NCBI GenBank assembly: GCA_029263315.1 | Contig: JAJCXR010000026.1 | Span: 186,001 to 250,000, forward strand | Direction: 5' to 3' | From: Acidobacteriota bacterium | GTDB taxonomy: Bacteria; Acidobacteriota; Thermoanaerobaculia; Multivoradales; J023 | DNA: 64,000 nucleotides | Shown here: in pieces, positions 29,442 through 36,901 of the stretch | Layout of the letters: every line of letters starts with the position of its first letter | How positions within the stretch are numbered: position 1 is the first letter of the stretch | Program-made: the position numbers and the translations under genes | Notes under the pieces: model-generated | Told to the model about the DNA's origin: nothing | The model's database searches: none | The model's input: only the letters and a program-made list of their open reading frames with translations

Positions 29442-29509
29442 TAGGATTCGCGACCGGTTCTAAGGGATGAAATGTGAAATGGGCCTTGATGCGAGGGCCG
29501 CCGGGTTGT

Positions 29510-29545
29510 GGTTTCGCCGCCACCTACGGTTCCGCCGCCACCTAC
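29510..29545. repeat. 18-bp tandem duplication (one mismatch) upstream of the cNMP-FHA gene
   Basis: ggtttcgccgccacctac / ggttccgccgccacctac. Confidence 0.8.
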
Positions 29546-29569
29546 TGTGTTGCGGGAGAGCTTGCCGCC

Positions 29570-30289
29570 ATGACCTACTCGATCGTCGAATTCCAAACCC
29601 ATGAGATGGTCTTCAAGCAGGGCGAAGACGGCGACCACATGTACCTCGTGCAGGAGGGTGAGGTCGAGGTTCTGCATGAGATCGGCGGCGTTCAGAAGCA
29701 GATGGCGGTGCTCGACCGGGGCGATTTTTTCGGTGAGATGGCCGTTTTGGAGAAGGAGCCACGGTCTCACTCCGTCAGGGCCTTGACCTCCACCAAGTTG
29801 GTCACCATCGATCGGGCCGGTTTCAAGAGCATGTTGACCCGCAACGCCGACATCTCGGTTCGGATGATCCGCAAGCTCAGCAAGCGCCTACTGTCGGCGG
29901 AAGACATGCTGTTGCGTGCCTATGCGGGCACCGCCTCATCGGCGGACGCCAGCCCGGATCTGGTGGCCGGCGAGGCGCGCTTGTTGTTTGTCTCCGAGCG
30001 TCTGGAGCTACCCCTTCCGGTGCAGCCCGAGGTCAAGGTTGGGCGCATCGATCCGATCAACCACGTGCATCCCGATGTCGACCTGACCAAAATCGACAAG
30101 CAGCTCACCACCAGCCGCCGCCATGCTCGCCTGCTGCGGCGTAGCGACGGCTTCTTCATCCAAGAAGAGCAGGCCACGAACGGCACCTTTGTCAACGGAC
30201 AGCGCATCTCGGCCGAGCGGCCGCTGGAGATCCGCTCCGGTGACGACATCATGTTCGGAGCCGTTCATATGAGATTTCTCGTCGATTGA
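29570..30289 (+). CDS. Cyclic-nucleotide-binding domain plus FHA domain protein
   Basis: cNMP-type KQGEDGDHMYLVQEGEVEVLHEIGGVQKQMAVLDRGDFFGEMAVLEKEPRSHSVRA; FHA-type SRRHARLLRRSDGFFIQEEQATNGTFVNGQRI. Confidence 0.85.
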   Translation: MTYSIVEFQTHEMVFKQGEDGDHMYLVQEGEVEVLHEIGGVQKQMAVLDRGDFFGEMAVLEKEPRSHSVRALTSTKLVTIDRAGFKSMLTRNADISVRMIRKLSKRLLSAEDMLLRAYAGTASSADASPDLVAGEARLLFVSERLELPLPVQPEVKVGRIDPINHVHPDVDLTKIDKQLTTSRRHARLLRRSDGFFIQEEQATNGTFVNGQRISAERPLEIRSGDDIMFGAVHMRFLVD

Positions 30290-30337: not shown

Positions 30338-31120
30338 ATGCAGAGTGAACATCTCCAGCGTCCGCGGCTTCTGGTTTTCACCCTGGGTGAACGCCAGGAG
30401 TCGCGGCGTCGGCGCTTATTGCCGGCCGCCTTGCGCGGCGAAGAGTGTCGCCTGCACCGCGCCTGCCTTGACCAAGCCCTAGAGGCGGGTCGCCAAGCAT
30501 GCTTCGATCTCGAGGTTTCCTCGCCCTCACCTTTGGGTGGCCTGGCACCGGACATCATTCCCAGGCGCCAGGCTAGGGGCTCCTTCGCCCAGCGCATTAC
30601 GGCTGCCCTGCGGCGGGCTTTTGCCCGCAGCGGCCAACCGCTGGTCTTGGTGGGTTCCGACGTGCCGGGCTTGCGGGCCGAGCACTTCCAGCAGACCCGA
30701 GAAGCCCTGGCGGCGGATCCCCGACGGGTCGTCGTCGGACCGTCACCGGACGGCGGTTTCTACTTGCTGGCCGCGACGCAGCCTTTGGATTCGGTCCTCG
30801 ACCAGGTTCGTTGGCGCTGCCGCGGCACCCTGGCCAGTCTTCGCCGCGCCCTGCGCCGGGCCGGCCGGCCACTGACCTTGCTCGCTCCCTTGGCCGATCT
30901 GGATCGACGCAGCGACCTGGAGCAATGGTTGGCCGGACAAAAACTCCGGCGCTCCCTGGTCGACTCCGTATGGGGTCACCTGGTGGCGCTCCTGTTGGAA
31001 ATCCTCGCCGCCCTGCGCCGGGCCGGGCCGGCCTATCGCCGGAGCGCTCAGGGTCGCGGCACGCTCCGCACCCCTTGGGTTCGCGGACCGCCGCCGATCA
31101 CCTCCCTCTTCGTCCTGTAA
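30338..31120 (+). CDS. DUF2064/CofC-like glycosyltransferase (TIGR04282-type)
   Basis: QRITAALRRAFARSGQPLVLVGSDVPGL...VVVGPSPDGGFYLLA. Confidence 0.65.
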   Translation: MQSEHLQRPRLLVFTLGERQESRRRRLLPAALRGEECRLHRACLDQALEAGRQACFDLEVSSPSPLGGLAPDIIPRRQARGSFAQRITAALRRAFARSGQPLVLVGSDVPGLRAEHFQQTREALAADPRRVVVGPSPDGGFYLLAATQPLDSVLDQVRWRCRGTLASLRRALRRAGRPLTLLAPLADLDRRSDLEQWLAGQKLRRSLVDSVWGHLVALLLEILAALRRAGPAYRRSAQGRGTLRTPWVRGPPPITSLFVL

Positions 31121-31282
31121 TCGACCATCGGTCGGTGTCTCGTCGGTTGCCACCGATGAGCCTCGAGGCCGTTTGCACGCGAGCCCGGACCCACCTGTCG
31201 GTGTCCGACATCGCTTTTCCCAATGCATTTGCTCACATCACCGGACGCCCTAGAAGGGTGCTTTGGTCGGAGGTAGTGTCGT

Positions 31283-32458
31283 ATGGAAACCCAGAGTCAC
31301 GCGGAAACCGCCGTGAAAGAACGTTATGGACAGGCTGCGATGGCCCAGGAAGCGGCCCTCTGCTGTCCCGTGGACTACGATCCGCAGTATTTGAAGGCCA
31401 TTCCCGAGGAGGTCATCGCCCGCGACTACGGCTGCGGGGACCCGAGCCAACACCTGAAGGAGGGGGAGACGGTGCTCGACCTGGGGAGCGGCACCGGCAA
31501 GATTTGTTTCATCGCCTCTCAGGTGGTCGGCCCCAAGGGCAAGGTCATCGGCGTCGACATGACCTCCGAGATGCTCGATGTGGCCCGTCGTAATGCACCC
31601 GTGGTGGCCGATACCATCGGCTACGGCAATGTCGAGTTCAAGCGCGGGGTCATCCAGGACCTCAGCCTCGATCTGGACCTCCTCGACAAGGAGCTGACGG
31701 CGCGGCCGATCCAAGGGGCCGACGCTTATTTGGCCAGTGAGAAGCTGATCGCCCGATTGCGTCGCGAAAGCCCCTTGGTGGCCGATGACAGCGTTGACGT
31801 GGTGGTTTCCAACTGTGTGCTCAATCTGGTGGCGGCGTCCCACAAGCGGCAGCTCTTCGAAGAGATTCACCGCGTATTGCGGCGTGGTGGCCGGGCGGTG
31901 ATCTCCGACATCGTCTGCGACGAGGTGGTGACGGAAGAGATGATGCAGGACGCCGAGCTGTGGAGCGGTTGCATCTCGGGGGCTTTCACCGAGGAGGGTT
32001 TCCTCGAAGCCTTCGAGGAGGCGGGTTTCTATGGCATCCGAGTCTTGTCACGGCAGGAGGAGCCCTGGCGCACCGTGCAAGGCATCGAGTTCCGTTCGCT
32101 CACCATCGAAGCCTTCAAAGGCAAAGAGGGGGAGTGCTGGGAGCGTCATCAGGCGGTTATCTATCGCGGGCCTTTCAAGGAGGTGCTCGACGACGACGAC
32201 CATCGCATGCAGCGGGGGCGACGCTATGCGGTCTGCGACAAGACCTACCAGCTCTATCGCCAGGAACCCTATCGCCAGCACTTCGATTTTGTGGAGCCCC
32301 GGGTCGAGATTCCGTTGCACGACGCCGAGCCCTTCGACTGCACGGTGACGGGGTTGCGCCACCCCCGGGTGAGCAAAGGGGTGGATTACGAGGCCACCAG
32401 CGAAGCGACGGCATGCTGTGAACCCAGCCCGGGCGGGGGCGCCAATGGTTGCTGCTGA
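31283..32458 (+). CDS. ArsM-like SAM-dependent methyltransferase, divergent with internal insertion and C-terminal extension
   Basis: ARDYGCGDPSQHLKEGETVLDLGSGTGKICFIASQVVGPKGKVIGVDMTSEML; SNCVLNLV; LWSGCISGAF; CC near the N-terminus and a C-terminal CCEPSPGGGANGCC. Confidence 0.75.
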   Translation: METQSHAETAVKERYGQAAMAQEAALCCPVDYDPQYLKAIPEEVIARDYGCGDPSQHLKEGETVLDLGSGTGKICFIASQVVGPKGKVIGVDMTSEMLDVARRNAPVVADTIGYGNVEFKRGVIQDLSLDLDLLDKELTARPIQGADAYLASEKLIARLRRESPLVADDSVDVVVSNCVLNLVAASHKRQLFEEIHRVLRRGGRAVISDIVCDEVVTEEMMQDAELWSGCISGAFTEEGFLEAFEEAGFYGIRVLSRQEEPWRTVQGIEFRSLTIEAFKGKEGECWERHQAVIYRGPFKEVLDDDDHRMQRGRRYAVCDKTYQLYRQEPYRQHFDFVEPRVEIPLHDAEPFDCTVTGLRHPRVSKGVDYEATSEATACCEPSPGGGANGCC

Positions 32459-33356
32459 AGGGCAACGCCAGGAGCTGACCGCGGCCTCGCCGCGGGTGGC
32501 CCTGCGCTCCCTGGACACGCTGTGGTTTCAGGTGGCGGGCACGCTGTGCAATCTCGCCTGTAGCCACTGCTTCATCTCGTGCTCGCCGACCAACCGTACC
32601 CACGAGCACATGTCGCTGGAGCAAGTGCGCACCTACCTCGAGGAAGGGGTGCGCTTGGGGGTCAAGGAGTACTACTTCACCGGTGGTGAGCCGTTTCTCA
32701 ATCCCCAGATGGAGGAGATCCTCGAAGCTGCCCTGGCCTGCGGTCCGGCGACGGTTTTGAGCAACGGCCTGTTGCTGGATGTGGAGCGTTGCCGCCGCTT
32801 GAAGGCATTGTCGGAGGCCTCCGACTATTCCTTGGACCTGCGTATTTCCCTCGACGGTTACGACGCCGAGAGCAACGATCCAATCCGCGGCGAGGGTACC
32901 TTTGAGCGCATTCTGAAAGGTGCCGTCAACGCCGAGGAGGCGGGATTGACACCGGTCATGACGGTGACGGAGGTGCTGCAGGAGAATGCCACGCAACAGG
33001 GCCGCCAGCGTTTCCTGGCCTTGCTCGAAGCGCGGGGCATCGCCAGGCCACGCTTGAAGATCCTGCCGGTCTTCCAACTCGGTGCCGAAGCGGAACGCAG
33101 CGGCGCCTATGCCGAATGGCAGCGCCTGGCCTCGACGGACGAGGGTGAAGACGGGCCCGGTGCCGAAAGTTGGGAGCATTTGCAGTGCAGCTCCTGCCGC
33201 ATGGTGACCGATCAAGGGGTCTGGGTTTGCCCCATCTTGATCAACGAACCCACGGGGAGGATGGGCGAGCGCTTGACGGACACCCTCGACAGCTTTCCCC
33301 TGGATCATCCAGCATGCTGGACGTGCCATGTGCATGGCGTCAGCTGCAAGACGTAG
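32445..33356 (+). CDS. Radical SAM protein with C-terminal SPASM/twitch-like Cys cluster
   Basis: CNLACSHC (CX3CX2C), YYFTGGEPFLNPQ; C-terminal CSSCRMVTDQGVWVCPI...CWTCHVHGVSC; start trimmed to MVAAEGQRQ. Confidence 0.8.
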   Translation: MVAAEGQRQELTAASPRVALRSLDTLWFQVAGTLCNLACSHCFISCSPTNRTHEHMSLEQVRTYLEEGVRLGVKEYYFTGGEPFLNPQMEEILEAALACGPATVLSNGLLLDVERCRRLKALSEASDYSLDLRISLDGYDAESNDPIRGEGTFERILKGAVNAEEAGLTPVMTVTEVLQENATQQGRQRFLALLEARGIARPRLKILPVFQLGAEAERSGAYAEWQRLASTDEGEDGPGAESWEHLQCSSCRMVTDQGVWVCPILINEPTGRMGERLTDTLDSFPLDHPACWTCHVHGVSCKT

Positions 33357-33371
33357 ATACGGGGTCGAGCC

Positions 33372-34397
33372 ATGAGCCAACGCATACCTGAAGACGAGGT
33401 CGACAAAGAACAGCGGGCCCGCCGCGATGTCGCGGTCGATAAGCTGACCGCCCACCGGGGCATGGCCACTTGGGGGGAACGCCTCGTGCCCTTGGGCGAG
33501 TTTCGTCAGGCGGCACAGGGTTATGGGAGGCAATTGGACGCCGCCGCGAGGCAGCAGCAGGAGGCGAATTTCCTCGAGCCCCAAGCCGACGGCGTCCGCG
33601 TCGAAGGGCCGTTCTCGAAAATCGCTGTCTTCGGCGGCGTCTACAACAACAGCTACGCTCTCGAAGCGCTGCTCGAAGATGCCCGGCGAAGAGGTGCCGA
33701 GGCGGTCTACTGCCTGGGGGACTTTGGCGGCTTCGGGCCGCATCCCGAAAAGGTCTGGCCGCTGTTGCGGCAAGGGGAGGTGCGCTGCATCCAAGGTAAC
33801 TACGAAGCGTCGTTGTCCTCCGGTCGCGAGGACTGCAACTGTGGCTACGCCGATCCGCGGGACAACCACTTCGCCAAGATCTCCTACGACTATACGGCGA
33901 CGAGGTGCTCCCCGGAGTACAAGCGATGGATGGGCACCCATCCCCTGCGGCGCCGCGTGCGGGTGGGCGATCATGAGCTGCTGCTCGTCCACGGCTCGCC
34001 CCGTCAAATCAATGAGTTTCTCTTTGCCTCCGCCGCCTCGACGCCTTACCTCGAGGTATTGCTCAACGAAGAGCGCTGCGACGGCATGCTGTGTACCCAC
34101 AGCGGTCTGCACTGGCATCGGCGTTTGCCGTCGGGGCGTCATGCCGTCAACGTCGGAGTCATCGGCCGTCCGGCCAACGACGGCGCCACCCACGTTTGGT
34201 ATAGCCTGCTGACCGACGGCGGAGCCGCCGGGCTCAGCGTCGAGTTGGCGCCCTTGGTCTACGATCACCAATCCTTGGCCCAGGACATGCGCGACGAAGA
34301 TCTGCCCCAGGAATTCGTCGAGACGATTCTCACCGGCTGGTGGACGACCTGTTTGGAGATCTTGCCCGCTAAAGAACGGGCCCGGTCGAAATTCTGA
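33372..34397 (+). CDS. Calcineurin-like metallophosphoesterase with N-terminal extension
   Basis: IAVFGGVYNNSYALEALLED, YCLGDFGGFGPHPEKV, CIQGNYEASL, LLLVHGSP, THSGLHWHRRLPSGRHAVNVGVIGRP. Confidence 0.75.
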   Translation: MSQRIPEDEVDKEQRARRDVAVDKLTAHRGMATWGERLVPLGEFRQAAQGYGRQLDAAARQQQEANFLEPQADGVRVEGPFSKIAVFGGVYNNSYALEALLEDARRRGAEAVYCLGDFGGFGPHPEKVWPLLRQGEVRCIQGNYEASLSSGREDCNCGYADPRDNHFAKISYDYTATRCSPEYKRWMGTHPLRRRVRVGDHELLLVHGSPRQINEFLFASAASTPYLEVLLNEERCDGMLCTHSGLHWHRRLPSGRHAVNVGVIGRPANDGATHVWYSLLTDGGAAGLSVELAPLVYDHQSLAQDMRDEDLPQEFVETILTGWWTTCLEILPAKERARSKF

Positions 34398-34481
34398 CCT
34401 CGTTGGTGACGCTAGAGAGCTCACCGCGCCCCGTTCATCCAACATCGCCCACCGGGCGAAACATCCTGCACAGGACAACCG

Positions 34482-35714
34482 ATGACCGTCAACCAGAGCC
34501 AACTTGCACCGCCCCACATCGCCATCCTCGGCAGTGGTCCCACGGGACTGGAAGCTGCCCTGGCCGCCCATCGAGGGGGTTTTGCGTTCACCCTCTACGA
34601 GGCGGCGCCCCACATTGCAGGGCATATCACCGCCTGGGGGCACGTCCAGCTGTTCACCCCGTGGTCGATGAACGTGTCTCCCAACATGCGGCAAGCCCTC
34701 GAAGCCGCCGGTCAGACGGTTCCCGATACCCAGGCATGCCCCACCGGGCAAGAGCTGGTGGACGGCCTGCTGGCGCCCCTGGGCCGCCTGCCGGAGATCG
34801 AGAAGCACCTGCGGCTGGGCCATCGGGTGATCGCCGTCGGTCGCCAAGGGCTGCTGAAGCATGAAGAGATCGGCAGCGCCGATCGCGGAGCACGCCCCTT
34901 CCGCCTGTTGCTGGAGGACGGCGACGGCCGGCAACAGGTGGCCTACGCCGACATGGTGCTCGACTGCACTGGCAATAGCGTCGCCAACGCCGTGGGGGAC
35001 GGCGGCATTCCGGCCCCCGGTGAGCAGAGCGCCGCGCCTTGTATCGAGCACCGCATTCCCGACATGAGCCGCGAAGCCAGCCGATGGGCAGGGTGTACCG
35101 TGCTGCTCATCGGCTCGGGCCATTCGGCCCAGACGGCCCTTCGCGATCTCGTCGACCTGGCGACGGAGCATCCCGGCGGCAAGGTCATTTGGTTGCGGCG
35201 CAGCCAGGGACAAGACCTCGGGGTGGTGGAAGGCGATCCCCTGCCGGAGCGGGCCCGTCTGACCGCCCAGGCGCAGCAGTTTTTGGTCGAGCCACCACCT
35301 TGCCTGACCATCGAGGCCGGTGCGGTCGTCGATGCTTTGGCCGTCGACGGGCCAGGCGATGGGTTGAGCGTCACCCTGCGGGACCACCAAGGCCAAACGA
35401 AAATCCTTCAGGTGGATAGGCTGTTGGCCTTGACCGGCAAAGTGGGTGACCACCACCTCTACCGTCAGCTGCAAATCCACGAGTGCTACGCCACCAGTGG
35501 GCCGATGAAGCTGGCGGCGGCGCTTCTAGGAGCTTCGGGCGGCGGTGGCGATTGCCTGGCCCAGACCAGCCTGGGGCCTGATACGTTGAAGAATCCAGAG
35601 CCGGGTTTTTTCATTCTCGGCAGCAAAGCCTACGGGCGGCGCAATGACTTTTTGATGCGGGTCGGCTGGCAGCAAGTGGAAGAGGTCTTCCAACTCTTGC
35701 ACAACAACCACTGA
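34482..35714 (+). CDS. FAD-dependent oxidoreductase (flavin monooxygenase/thioredoxin-reductase-like fold)
   Basis: IAILGSGPTGLEAALAAHRGGFAFTLYEAAP; second Rossmann VLLIGSGHSAQTALRDLV; MVLDCTGN. Confidence 0.75.
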   Translation: MTVNQSQLAPPHIAILGSGPTGLEAALAAHRGGFAFTLYEAAPHIAGHITAWGHVQLFTPWSMNVSPNMRQALEAAGQTVPDTQACPTGQELVDGLLAPLGRLPEIEKHLRLGHRVIAVGRQGLLKHEEIGSADRGARPFRLLLEDGDGRQQVAYADMVLDCTGNSVANAVGDGGIPAPGEQSAAPCIEHRIPDMSREASRWAGCTVLLIGSGHSAQTALRDLVDLATEHPGGKVIWLRRSQGQDLGVVEGDPLPERARLTAQAQQFLVEPPPCLTIEAGAVVDALAVDGPGDGLSVTLRDHQGQTKILQVDRLLALTGKVGDHHLYRQLQIHECYATSGPMKLAAALLGASGGGGDCLAQTSLGPDTLKNPEPGFFILGSKAYGRRNDFLMRVGWQQVEEVFQLLHNNH

Positions 35715-35752
35715 CCCTTTGGTTCCGGTTTTTCCGGAAGGAGCCACCTAGC

Positions 35753-36901
35753 GTGCCGAAAAATCTCTACAGCGTCGATCGGTCCTTCGAGCACGGACGA
35801 CCCTCTGCCGTCGGCGTGTTGGTGGTCAATTTGGGCACTCCGGAAGCGCCGACGGCCGAGGCCCTCAATCCCTATCTCAAACAGTTTCTGTGGGATCCGC
35901 GGGTCATCGAGCTGTCGCGGCCGGTGTGGTGGATGATTCTGAACTTCTTCGTCTTGACCACCCGGCCCAAGAAATCCGCCGAGCTCTATGCCAGAATTTG
36001 GACAGACGAAGGCTCGCCGCTGATGATCTATTCGCAGAGCATCGTGCGGCAAATGGAAGAGAAGCTTCAGGCGGAGTACGGAACCCCCATTCACGTCGCC
36101 CTGGGCATGACCTACGGCGAGCCGTCGGTGCCCAACGCCATGGCGGAGCTCAAGGCCAAGGGATGTGATCGTCTGCTGGTCTTCCCCCTTTACTCCCACT
36201 ATTCCTCCAGCAGCACCGGCGCCTCGATGGATGCGGTGATGAAAGAGCTGATGACTTGGCGACACATCCCGGAGCTGCGTTCGGTGCATCAGTACCACGA
36301 CGACCCCGCCTACATCCGTGCCTTGGCCGATGCGGTGCGGGCCCATTGGGCAGAGCATGGGCAGCCGGACAAGTTGGTGACCTCCTACCACGGTATCCCC
36401 AAGCGTTATTTTCTCAATGGAGATCCGTATCACTGCCAATGCCATAAGACGACCCGTCTGTTGGTCGAAGAGCTGGAGTTGCCGAGGGAGCGCTACGAAG
36501 TGACCTTCCAATCCCTCTTCGGCCGGGAGGAATGGTTACAGCCCTACACCGACGTCACCCTAGAAGCGATGGCCCGCTCCGGCATCGGGCGGGTGGACGT
36601 CATGTGTCCCGGCTTCGCCGTCGATTGCCTGGAAACCATCGACGAAATCGGTCGTGAGAACCGTCATGTCTTCATCGAGGCGGGGGGCAAGGAGTATCAC
36701 TTCATTCCCTGCCTCAACGATCGGCCACAGCATGTTGAGCTGTTGACCGACTTGATGCGTCGCAACCTACACGGCTGGGCTGTCGAGAAAGACGACTGGG
36801 ACGCCGAAGCCCAGAGGGCCAGCGACCAGCAGAGCCGCCAACTGGCGGACGCCATGGCCCAACGGGGCGTCCAGGCGGACGCCGGCTACGGCGAGGCTTG
36901 A
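35753..36901 (+). CDS. hemH: Ferrochelatase
   Basis: GVLVVNLGTPEAPTAEALNPYLKQFLWDPRVIEL; YHGIPKRYFLNGDPYHCQCHKTTRLL; VTFQSLFGREEWLQPYT; CPGFAVDCLETIDEI. Confidence 0.93.
   Translation: MPKNLYSVDRSFEHGRPSAVGVLVVNLGTPEAPTAEALNPYLKQFLWDPRVIELSRPVWWMILNFFVLTTRPKKSAELYARIWTDEGSPLMIYSQSIVRQMEEKLQAEYGTPIHVALGMTYGEPSVPNAMAELKAKGCDRLLVFPLYSHYSSSSTGASMDAVMKELMTWRHIPELRSVHQYHDDPAYIRALADAVRAHWAEHGQPDKLVTSYHGIPKRYFLNGDPYHCQCHKTTRLLVEELELPRERYEVTFQSLFGREEWLQPYTDVTLEAMARSGIGRVDVMCPGFAVDCLETIDEIGRENRHVFIEAGGKEYHFIPCLNDRPQHVELLTDLMRRNLHGWAVEKDDWDAEAQRASDQQSRQLADAMAQRGVQADAGYGEA

Follow-up and report, generated by a model that had tools for sequence, protein, structure and literature searches.

A conserved methyltransferase and radical SAM gene cluster of Acidobacteriota: a candidate organoarsenical biosynthetic module

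What is made by a group of adjacent genes, in which an ArsM-like methyltransferase is found next to a radical S-adenosylmethionine (SAM) enzyme and a phosphoesterase? The question is raised by a locus from the genome of a soil Acidobacteriota (8.0 Mb, 67 contigs), whose closest named relatives are metagenome-assembled Thermoanaerobaculia (Acidobacteriota). The locus lies within the 64,000-nucleotide stretch that was analysed, hereafter called the window, where a first-pass annotation had pointed to six consecutive genes on the + strand as a possible organoarsenical or metalloid cluster. All six open reading frames (ORFs) were confirmed, as follows:

30338..31120, + strand: DUF2064/TIGR04282-like transferase (PF09837 and TIGR04282 profile matches), a variable component
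31283..32458, + strand: ArsM-type As(III) SAM methyltransferase (MT), predicted, long form with the architecture of the arsinothricin ArsM (NF040538)
32445..33356 from ATG, alternative start GTG at 32418, + strand: radical SAM enzyme (rSAM; PF04055)
33372..34397, + strand: remodelled metallophosphoesterase (MPE), with a predicted asymmetric Ap4A-hydrolase-like fold (Metallophos_2, 32.2 bits; Foldseek)
34482..35714, + strand: flavin adenine dinucleotide (FAD)/NAD(P) flavoprotein, indicated as FAD (weak Pfam FAD/NAD-binding matches)
35753..36901, + strand: ferrochelatase HemH (TIGR00109, 312.7 bits, above cut-off)

A gap of 162 nt separates the first two genes. With the ATG at 32445 as its start, the rSAM overlaps the MT by 14 nt, and the MPE follows after 15 nt: the packing of these three genes, noticed already at first pass, is as in an operon. 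Gaps of 84 and 38 nt precede the FAD and hemH, respectively. The first five genes form a conserved module. It is predicted, with a probability of about 0.6, to be an organoarsenical biosynthetic module, which would follow an arsenosugar-like logic with a different step for the formation of the carbon-arsenic (C-As) bond.

Conservation of the module

When 120 genomes of the class were searched with profiles, 31 were found to contain the rSAM, and the identical 31 the MPE (P about 2e-29 if genomes were independent; since they are not, the figure is a description and not a test). The FAD family is present in 27 of the 31 carriers and in none of the 89 non-carriers; 20 carriers belong to the same taxonomic order, and all of these but G011 have the long MT (19 of 20). 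When the MPE was used as a query against 40 relatives, a homologue at 62–72% identity was found in most genomes. Throughout 20 mapped neighbourhoods the arrangement MT-rSAM-MPE-FAD recurs, at 54–76% protein identity, often with the DUF2064 gene before and hemH after; two genomes have the MT relocated behind the MPE and the FAD about 5 kb further, all genes being still linked. Several ORF clusters from the neighbourhood screen were dropped, as shadow ORFs opposite conserved genes. Mirror-tree correlations of the cluster proteins range from 0.60 to 0.77 (r, without correction for species phylogeny). Because the genes are conserved across the order and the module is kept across phyla, they are coding and linked, and not chance ORFs. 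Co-occurrence of the MT and the rSAM, proposed at first pass as a check, is found across families and, with rearranged gene order, across phyla.

True ArsS occurs in 25 of the 120 genomes, but a single one of these belongs to the 31 carriers, where 6.5 would be expected (P 0.003, phylogeny ignored), as if ArsS and the cluster substituted for each other. G015 (L134, L133), the sole carrier which also contains a true ArsS, would lend itself to a comparison of both systems within a single organism.

A scan of genome contigs led to 73 loci; several come from the same genomes as the 120-genome set, and the two sets are not independent. Of 36 Thermoanaerobaculia-type loci, 16 have a DUF2064 gene close to the cluster, and so have L079, L083, L088, L104, L112 and L117. 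The gene hemH adjoins the cluster in 10 of the 36 and in none outside that group; as it is also the only ferrochelatase gene of the window genome, it is probably a housekeeping neighbour, outside the pathway. The ferrochelatase, assigned to the cluster at first pass, was therefore rejected as a pathway member.

Features of the encoded proteins

The best NCBIfam match of the MT is NF040538, the arsinothricin ArsM, with 335 bits over nearly the full length; this is below the cut-off of 500, and the protein is not a member of that family by this measure. A homologue from KSB1 scores 376.8 bits. When the MT is aligned to CmArsM (4kw7/4fr0), Cys51, 178 and 230 correspond to the As(III)-binding cysteines; together with Cys27/28, they are invariant, across phyla, in all homologues covering these positions. 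The spacing is the same as in BgArsM from the arsinothricin cluster, where cysteines are located at 30, 54, 181 and 233 (PMC8552651). The MT, called ArsM-like at first pass, keeps that description and, by its conserved cysteines, is predicted to be an As(III) methyltransferase of ArsM type.

Membership of the rSAM in the radical SAM superfamily is indicated by a PF04055 match above cut-off (77.6 bits) and by the CX3CX2C motif. The cysteines of the latter (Cys44/48/51, numbered from the GTG at 32418) are invariant in about 70 homologues, as are five C-terminal ones (Cys257, 271, 300, 303 and 310), which suggest an auxiliary iron-sulfur cluster of the twitch/SPASM type. Its best family matches are to Rv1681, ScmF and mycofactocin-type enzymes. 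Two radical SAM enzymes forming C-As bonds, ArsS and ArsL, are named in a review; neither identity could be retained for the rSAM. The ArsS model TIGR04167 scores 54.8 bits, confined to the radical SAM core, against a cut-off of 300, which bears out the first impression of a non-canonical enzyme. No BLAST match to an annotated Pseudomonas ArsL was found at E 1e-3, and the five extra invariant cysteines of the rSAM set it apart from ArsL, reportedly featuring only three conserved ones (PMC8552651).

For the MPE a calcineurin-like metallophosphoesterase fold is modelled: the top Foldseek match of its AlphaFold model (mean pLDDT 77.8) is the SapH Ap4A hydrolase 3qfm (E 3e-17, TM 0.80 by target). 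The full two-metal ligand set (DxH, GDxx, GNH, H, GHxH) is, however, not present: GxY stands in place of DxH, and Gly in place of the second His in GHTH. Asp117, Asn143, His207, His243 and a CxC pair at 155/157 are kept in 56–57 of 57 homologues. The protein also features an 80-residue N-terminal extension, the motifs GGVYNN and THxG, and a conserved C-terminal WWTTCLEILP tail. The earlier label of phosphoesterase may thus be kept for the fold, but not for a standard enzyme: half of the catalytic metal ligands are lost, and ordinary phosphoesterase activity is doubtful.

Relatives of the MPE are found on plasmids within ars operons, beside ArsR, ArsM, ACR3, ArsC, ArsN2 or MIP. A CxC-containing metallophosphoesterase family is recurrent in plasmid ars operons of Bacteroidota and Rubrobacter, with members at the following positions:

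L144:6064-7556, ars-operon CxC metallophosphoesterase
L145:5995-6768, the same
L147:5998-6792, the same
L148:5998-6777, the same
L149:2782-3558, the same

These proteins show 28–35% identity to the cluster MPE over the catalytic domain, and share the CxC pair in all those compared but one. They keep SD(I/V)H and GHTH/GHSH, whereas the cluster MPE has GGVYNN and THxG, along with its N-terminal extension and WWTTCLEILP tail. As the normal motifs are retained by the ars-operon relatives, and the CxC by all of them except one, this pair appears to be older, and the metal site to have been remodelled later, in the cluster lineage. One Mucilaginibacter ars operon contains two metallophosphoesterase copies, the second without CxC.

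The FAD, with two dinucleotide-binding motifs and an invariant Cys358, is a probable redox tailoring enzyme. The DUF2064 protein scores 72.9 bits with PF09837, above the Pfam cut-off, and 87.6 bits over the full length of TIGR04282, below the cut-off of 134.

Related loci and their arsenic context

Related arrangements, some reshuffled, are found in loci labelled Planctomycetota, KSB1, Gemmatimonadota, Zixibacteria, Chthoniobacterales and Pseudomonadota. Phylum labels are as given in the records; L115 ("Gemmatimonadetes"), being near Thermoanaerobaculia, may be mislabelled. Other Acidobacteriota loci have the order FAD-rSAM-MPE, while FAD-rSAM-MT-MPE is found in KSB1 (L100, L107) and in L096, labelled Caldithrix, and FAD-rSAM-MPE-MT-MIP in L117, from Planctomycetota. 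The locus of a Chthoniobacterales metagenome-assembled genome (L104) reads MT-MIP-DUF2064-porin-Phn ABC-rSAM-FAD-MPE, where ABC stands for an ATP-binding cassette importer; in L079, from the complete genome of Acidobacteria bacterium Mor1 (CP011806.1), the MIP, MT, FAD and DUF2064 genes are divergent from rSAM-MPE. A small carboxymuconolactone-decarboxylase/AhpD-like protein adjoins the FAD or the rSAM in Acidobacteriota of other orders (L084, L085, L087, L089, L090).

Importers of arsenic or phosphate are not inside the cluster in the window genome; they are in several relatives. PstSCAB is included in seven loci (L033, L037, L044/L064, L058, L056, L074, L077) and a Phn-type ABC importer in five (L083, L088, L104, L112, L114); a relative of phosphate porins (OprP-like) is present in two of these five, and a MIP channel lies beside the MT in three (L079, L104, L117). 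Recurrence of pst and phn genes in arsenic islands has been described (PMC3834237), as has arsenite transport by aquaglyceroporins (PMC6205960); the cluster MIP proteins are matched by the models for MIP in general and for aquaporin Z, and their permeability to arsenite is therefore a presumption. PstB/PhnT matches of about 45–50 bits at distant flanks belong to unrelated ABC ATPases, which in the window are of Wzt-like type, and were ignored.

Homologues of the MT also occur among arsenic genes. On a plasmid of Cupriavidus sp. KK10, one directly adjoins a true ArsS (465.6 bits with TIGR04167, cut-off 300), and a few kilobases away lies a true TIGR04282 protein (201 bits, where 134 is the cut-off); on a Staphylococcus plasmid, another is found behind ArsR and a permease; a more distant one (35% identity) is the annotated ArsM of an arsQ-arsL-arsM locus. 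L112, which has no long MT, carries a canonical arsenite methyltransferase ArsM (355.8 bits, cut-off 263). The first-pass proposal was open to any metalloid: taken together, the MT cysteines, the MPE and MT relatives in ars loci, the transporters and the canonical ArsM of L112 point to arsenic rather than to selenium or another metalloid.

Further support comes from five genomes of the class which contain an independent single-ORF fusion, where a radical SAM/SPASM-like domain is followed by an ArsM-type domain at the C-terminus:

L128:5472-8000, - strand, rSAM-ArsM fusion
L129:5381-7909, + strand, the same
L130:6019-8757, + strand, the same
L131:381-3482, - strand, the same
L132:670-3210, + strand, the same

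Beside it, PstSCAB is found in L128 and L132 and DUF2064 in L128, L129, L131 and L132; the fusions are possibly another undescribed organoarsenic system. Partly similar to the module is also a plasmid cluster of Roseomonas haemaphysalidis:

L146:1-12783, TIGR04282 - DUF547 - rSAM - rSAM - Phn ABC - MPE, FAD nearby

It shares a relative of the rSAM, matched over its full length with 144 bits and 33% identity, DUF2064, a Phn-type importer and a degenerate MPE relative (35% identity, FGGPYSN variant), and differs in the absence of an annotated ArsM, in the extra DUF547 and TrsS-like radical SAM proteins, and in flavoproteins of other families.

Around the window cluster, the upstream flank includes a protein with cyclic nucleotide (cNMP)-binding and FHA domains and homogentisate/HPPD-like genes (tyrosine catabolism); an acetyl-CoA synthetase (downstream) and a sulfatase are also found in the flanks. 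Neither the cNMP-FHA, nor the homogentisate/HPPD-like, nor the acetyl-CoA synthetase gene looks pathway-related. The cNMP-binding/FHA protein, at 29474-30289 of the window, is directly upstream and could be a regulator; it is retained beside the cluster by five loci from the same family.

Proposed pathway and alternatives

From the observed gene content, co-occurrence, cysteine conservation, failure of the ArsS and ArsL comparisons and arsenic-type context in relatives, we infer the following reactions, their order and their product. Arsenate would enter through a Pst or Phn-type ABC importer and an OprP-like porin, arsenite through an aquaporin-family channel; reduction to As(III) would be carried out by general cell enzymes. 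The MT would methylate As(III) or an organo-As(III), and the rSAM would generate the characteristic C-As bond by adding to As(III) a radical, derived from SAM or of another origin, a role played elsewhere by ArsS and ArsL. The MPE might bind and process a nucleotide- or phosphate-bearing intermediate, or act as a Cys-containing arsenical-binding partner; the FAD might set the oxidation state of arsenic or oxidise the organic group, and the DUF2064 protein, where present, might transfer a sugar or nucleotide group. A distinct end product, as suggested at first pass, is still the expectation, given the non-ArsS rSAM and the additional MPE and FAD.

With the arsenosugar pathway (ArsM, ArsS, TIGR04282) the cluster shares an ArsM-type MT, a radical SAM enzyme and a DUF2064/TIGR04282 protein; it differs in the failure of its rSAM at the ArsS model, in the extra MPE and FAD, and in the near exclusion of ArsS from carriers. 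Compared to arsinothricin arsQ-arsL-arsM, no ArsQ is present, the MT is below the NF040538 cut-off and the rSAM has no BLAST similarity to ArsL. The bisenarsan (bsn) cluster of Streptomyces is likewise an organoarsenical natural product cluster; there the C-As bond is formed by homologues of EPSP synthase and phosphoglycerate mutase, with no SAM-dependent enzymes (PMC12159101).

Several observations weigh against a biosynthetic module. The long MT is absent from all 11 carriers of other orders, as it is from G011, so methylation by this family is not obligatory. Some Planctomycetota loci contain an rSAM homologue without MPE or MT: near those of Phycisphaerae/Planctomycetota L097-L099, L101-L103, L105, L106 and L111 (43–49% identity), no MPE, FAD or MT was found. 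Co-occurrence counts ignore phylogeny, and the AlphaFold model of the rSAM is poor (mean pLDDT 57.8). Finally, the importers found inside the cluster would be just as expected for the metabolism of phosphate or phosphonates, or for the scavenging of organoarsenicals.

Scavenging is the alternative which survives best, although it is unlikely: organoarsenicals or organophosphonates would be imported, the rSAM would cleave the C-As (or carbon-phosphorus, C-P) bond like PhnJ, the MPE and FAD would finish the breakdown, and the MT would detoxify the freed arsenite. High-affinity importers inside the cluster of relatives agree with it, as do the FAD-rSAM-MPE loci without long MT and an MPE fold near that of nucleotide phosphodiesterases; yet key metal ligands are lost from the MPE, profile scans matched no cluster gene to a C-P lyase subunit, and MT homologues keep biosynthetic partners, such as ArsS and TIGR04282 in Cupriavidus or, for the distant ArsM, the arsQ-arsL-arsM locus.

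Plain arsenic detoxification, by an ArsM operon with accidental neighbours, is quite improbable. Its basis is real, as the MT has the arsenic-binding cysteines and plasmid MPE relatives are ars-operon proteins; but rSAM, MPE and FAD co-occur strictly in the class, with a linkage surviving rearrangement and extending across phyla. Dedicated uptake in relatives is the reverse of resistance and, in agreement with the first-pass annotation, a scan of the genes flanking the window cluster revealed no ArsR, ArsB or ArsC, the ACR3 arsenite exporter gene of this genome being on another contig (C54). Equally improbable is a non-arsenic substrate, where an rSAM/SPASM-like pathway would act on a cofactor, lipid or peptide that contains phosphorus or selenium, and the ArsM homologue would have been recruited as a generic methyltransferase: the best matches of the rSAM, whose arsenic-binding site would be putative, and the formal phosphate and phosphonate types of the importers fit this possibility, while the three As(III)-binding MT cysteines, invariant across phyla, the MIP channels adjoining the MT, the canonical ArsM of L112 and the MPE and MT relatives in annotated arsenic loci speak against it.

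For a wider formulation of the biosynthetic reading the odds seem about even: an undescribed, cross-phylum pathway of organoarsenical assimilation, which in many lineages would include dedicated arsenic uptake and whose radical SAM enzyme would be of a third arsenic-acting type, leading to a new C-As metabolite, possibly an arsenosugar variant, an arsenic-containing nucleotide or a lipid head group. Open-access papers on arsinothricin (PMC8552651) and bisenarsan (PMC12159101) were found, and no account of this gene set, subscription journals and preprints being outside the search; novelty is therefore provisional.

An arsenic context is now given to a remodelled metallophosphoesterase family, previously without an assigned role. 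If the proposal is correct, a third C-As radical SAM enzyme would be conserved in uncultured soil and marine lineages, tied to the uptake of arsenate and arsenite and not to efflux, which would point to a purposeful production of organoarsenicals by many bacteria. The four-gene set MT-rSAM-MPE-FAD, which is open to experimental testing, would provide candidate genes for part of the environmental organoarsenic pool lacking known makers.

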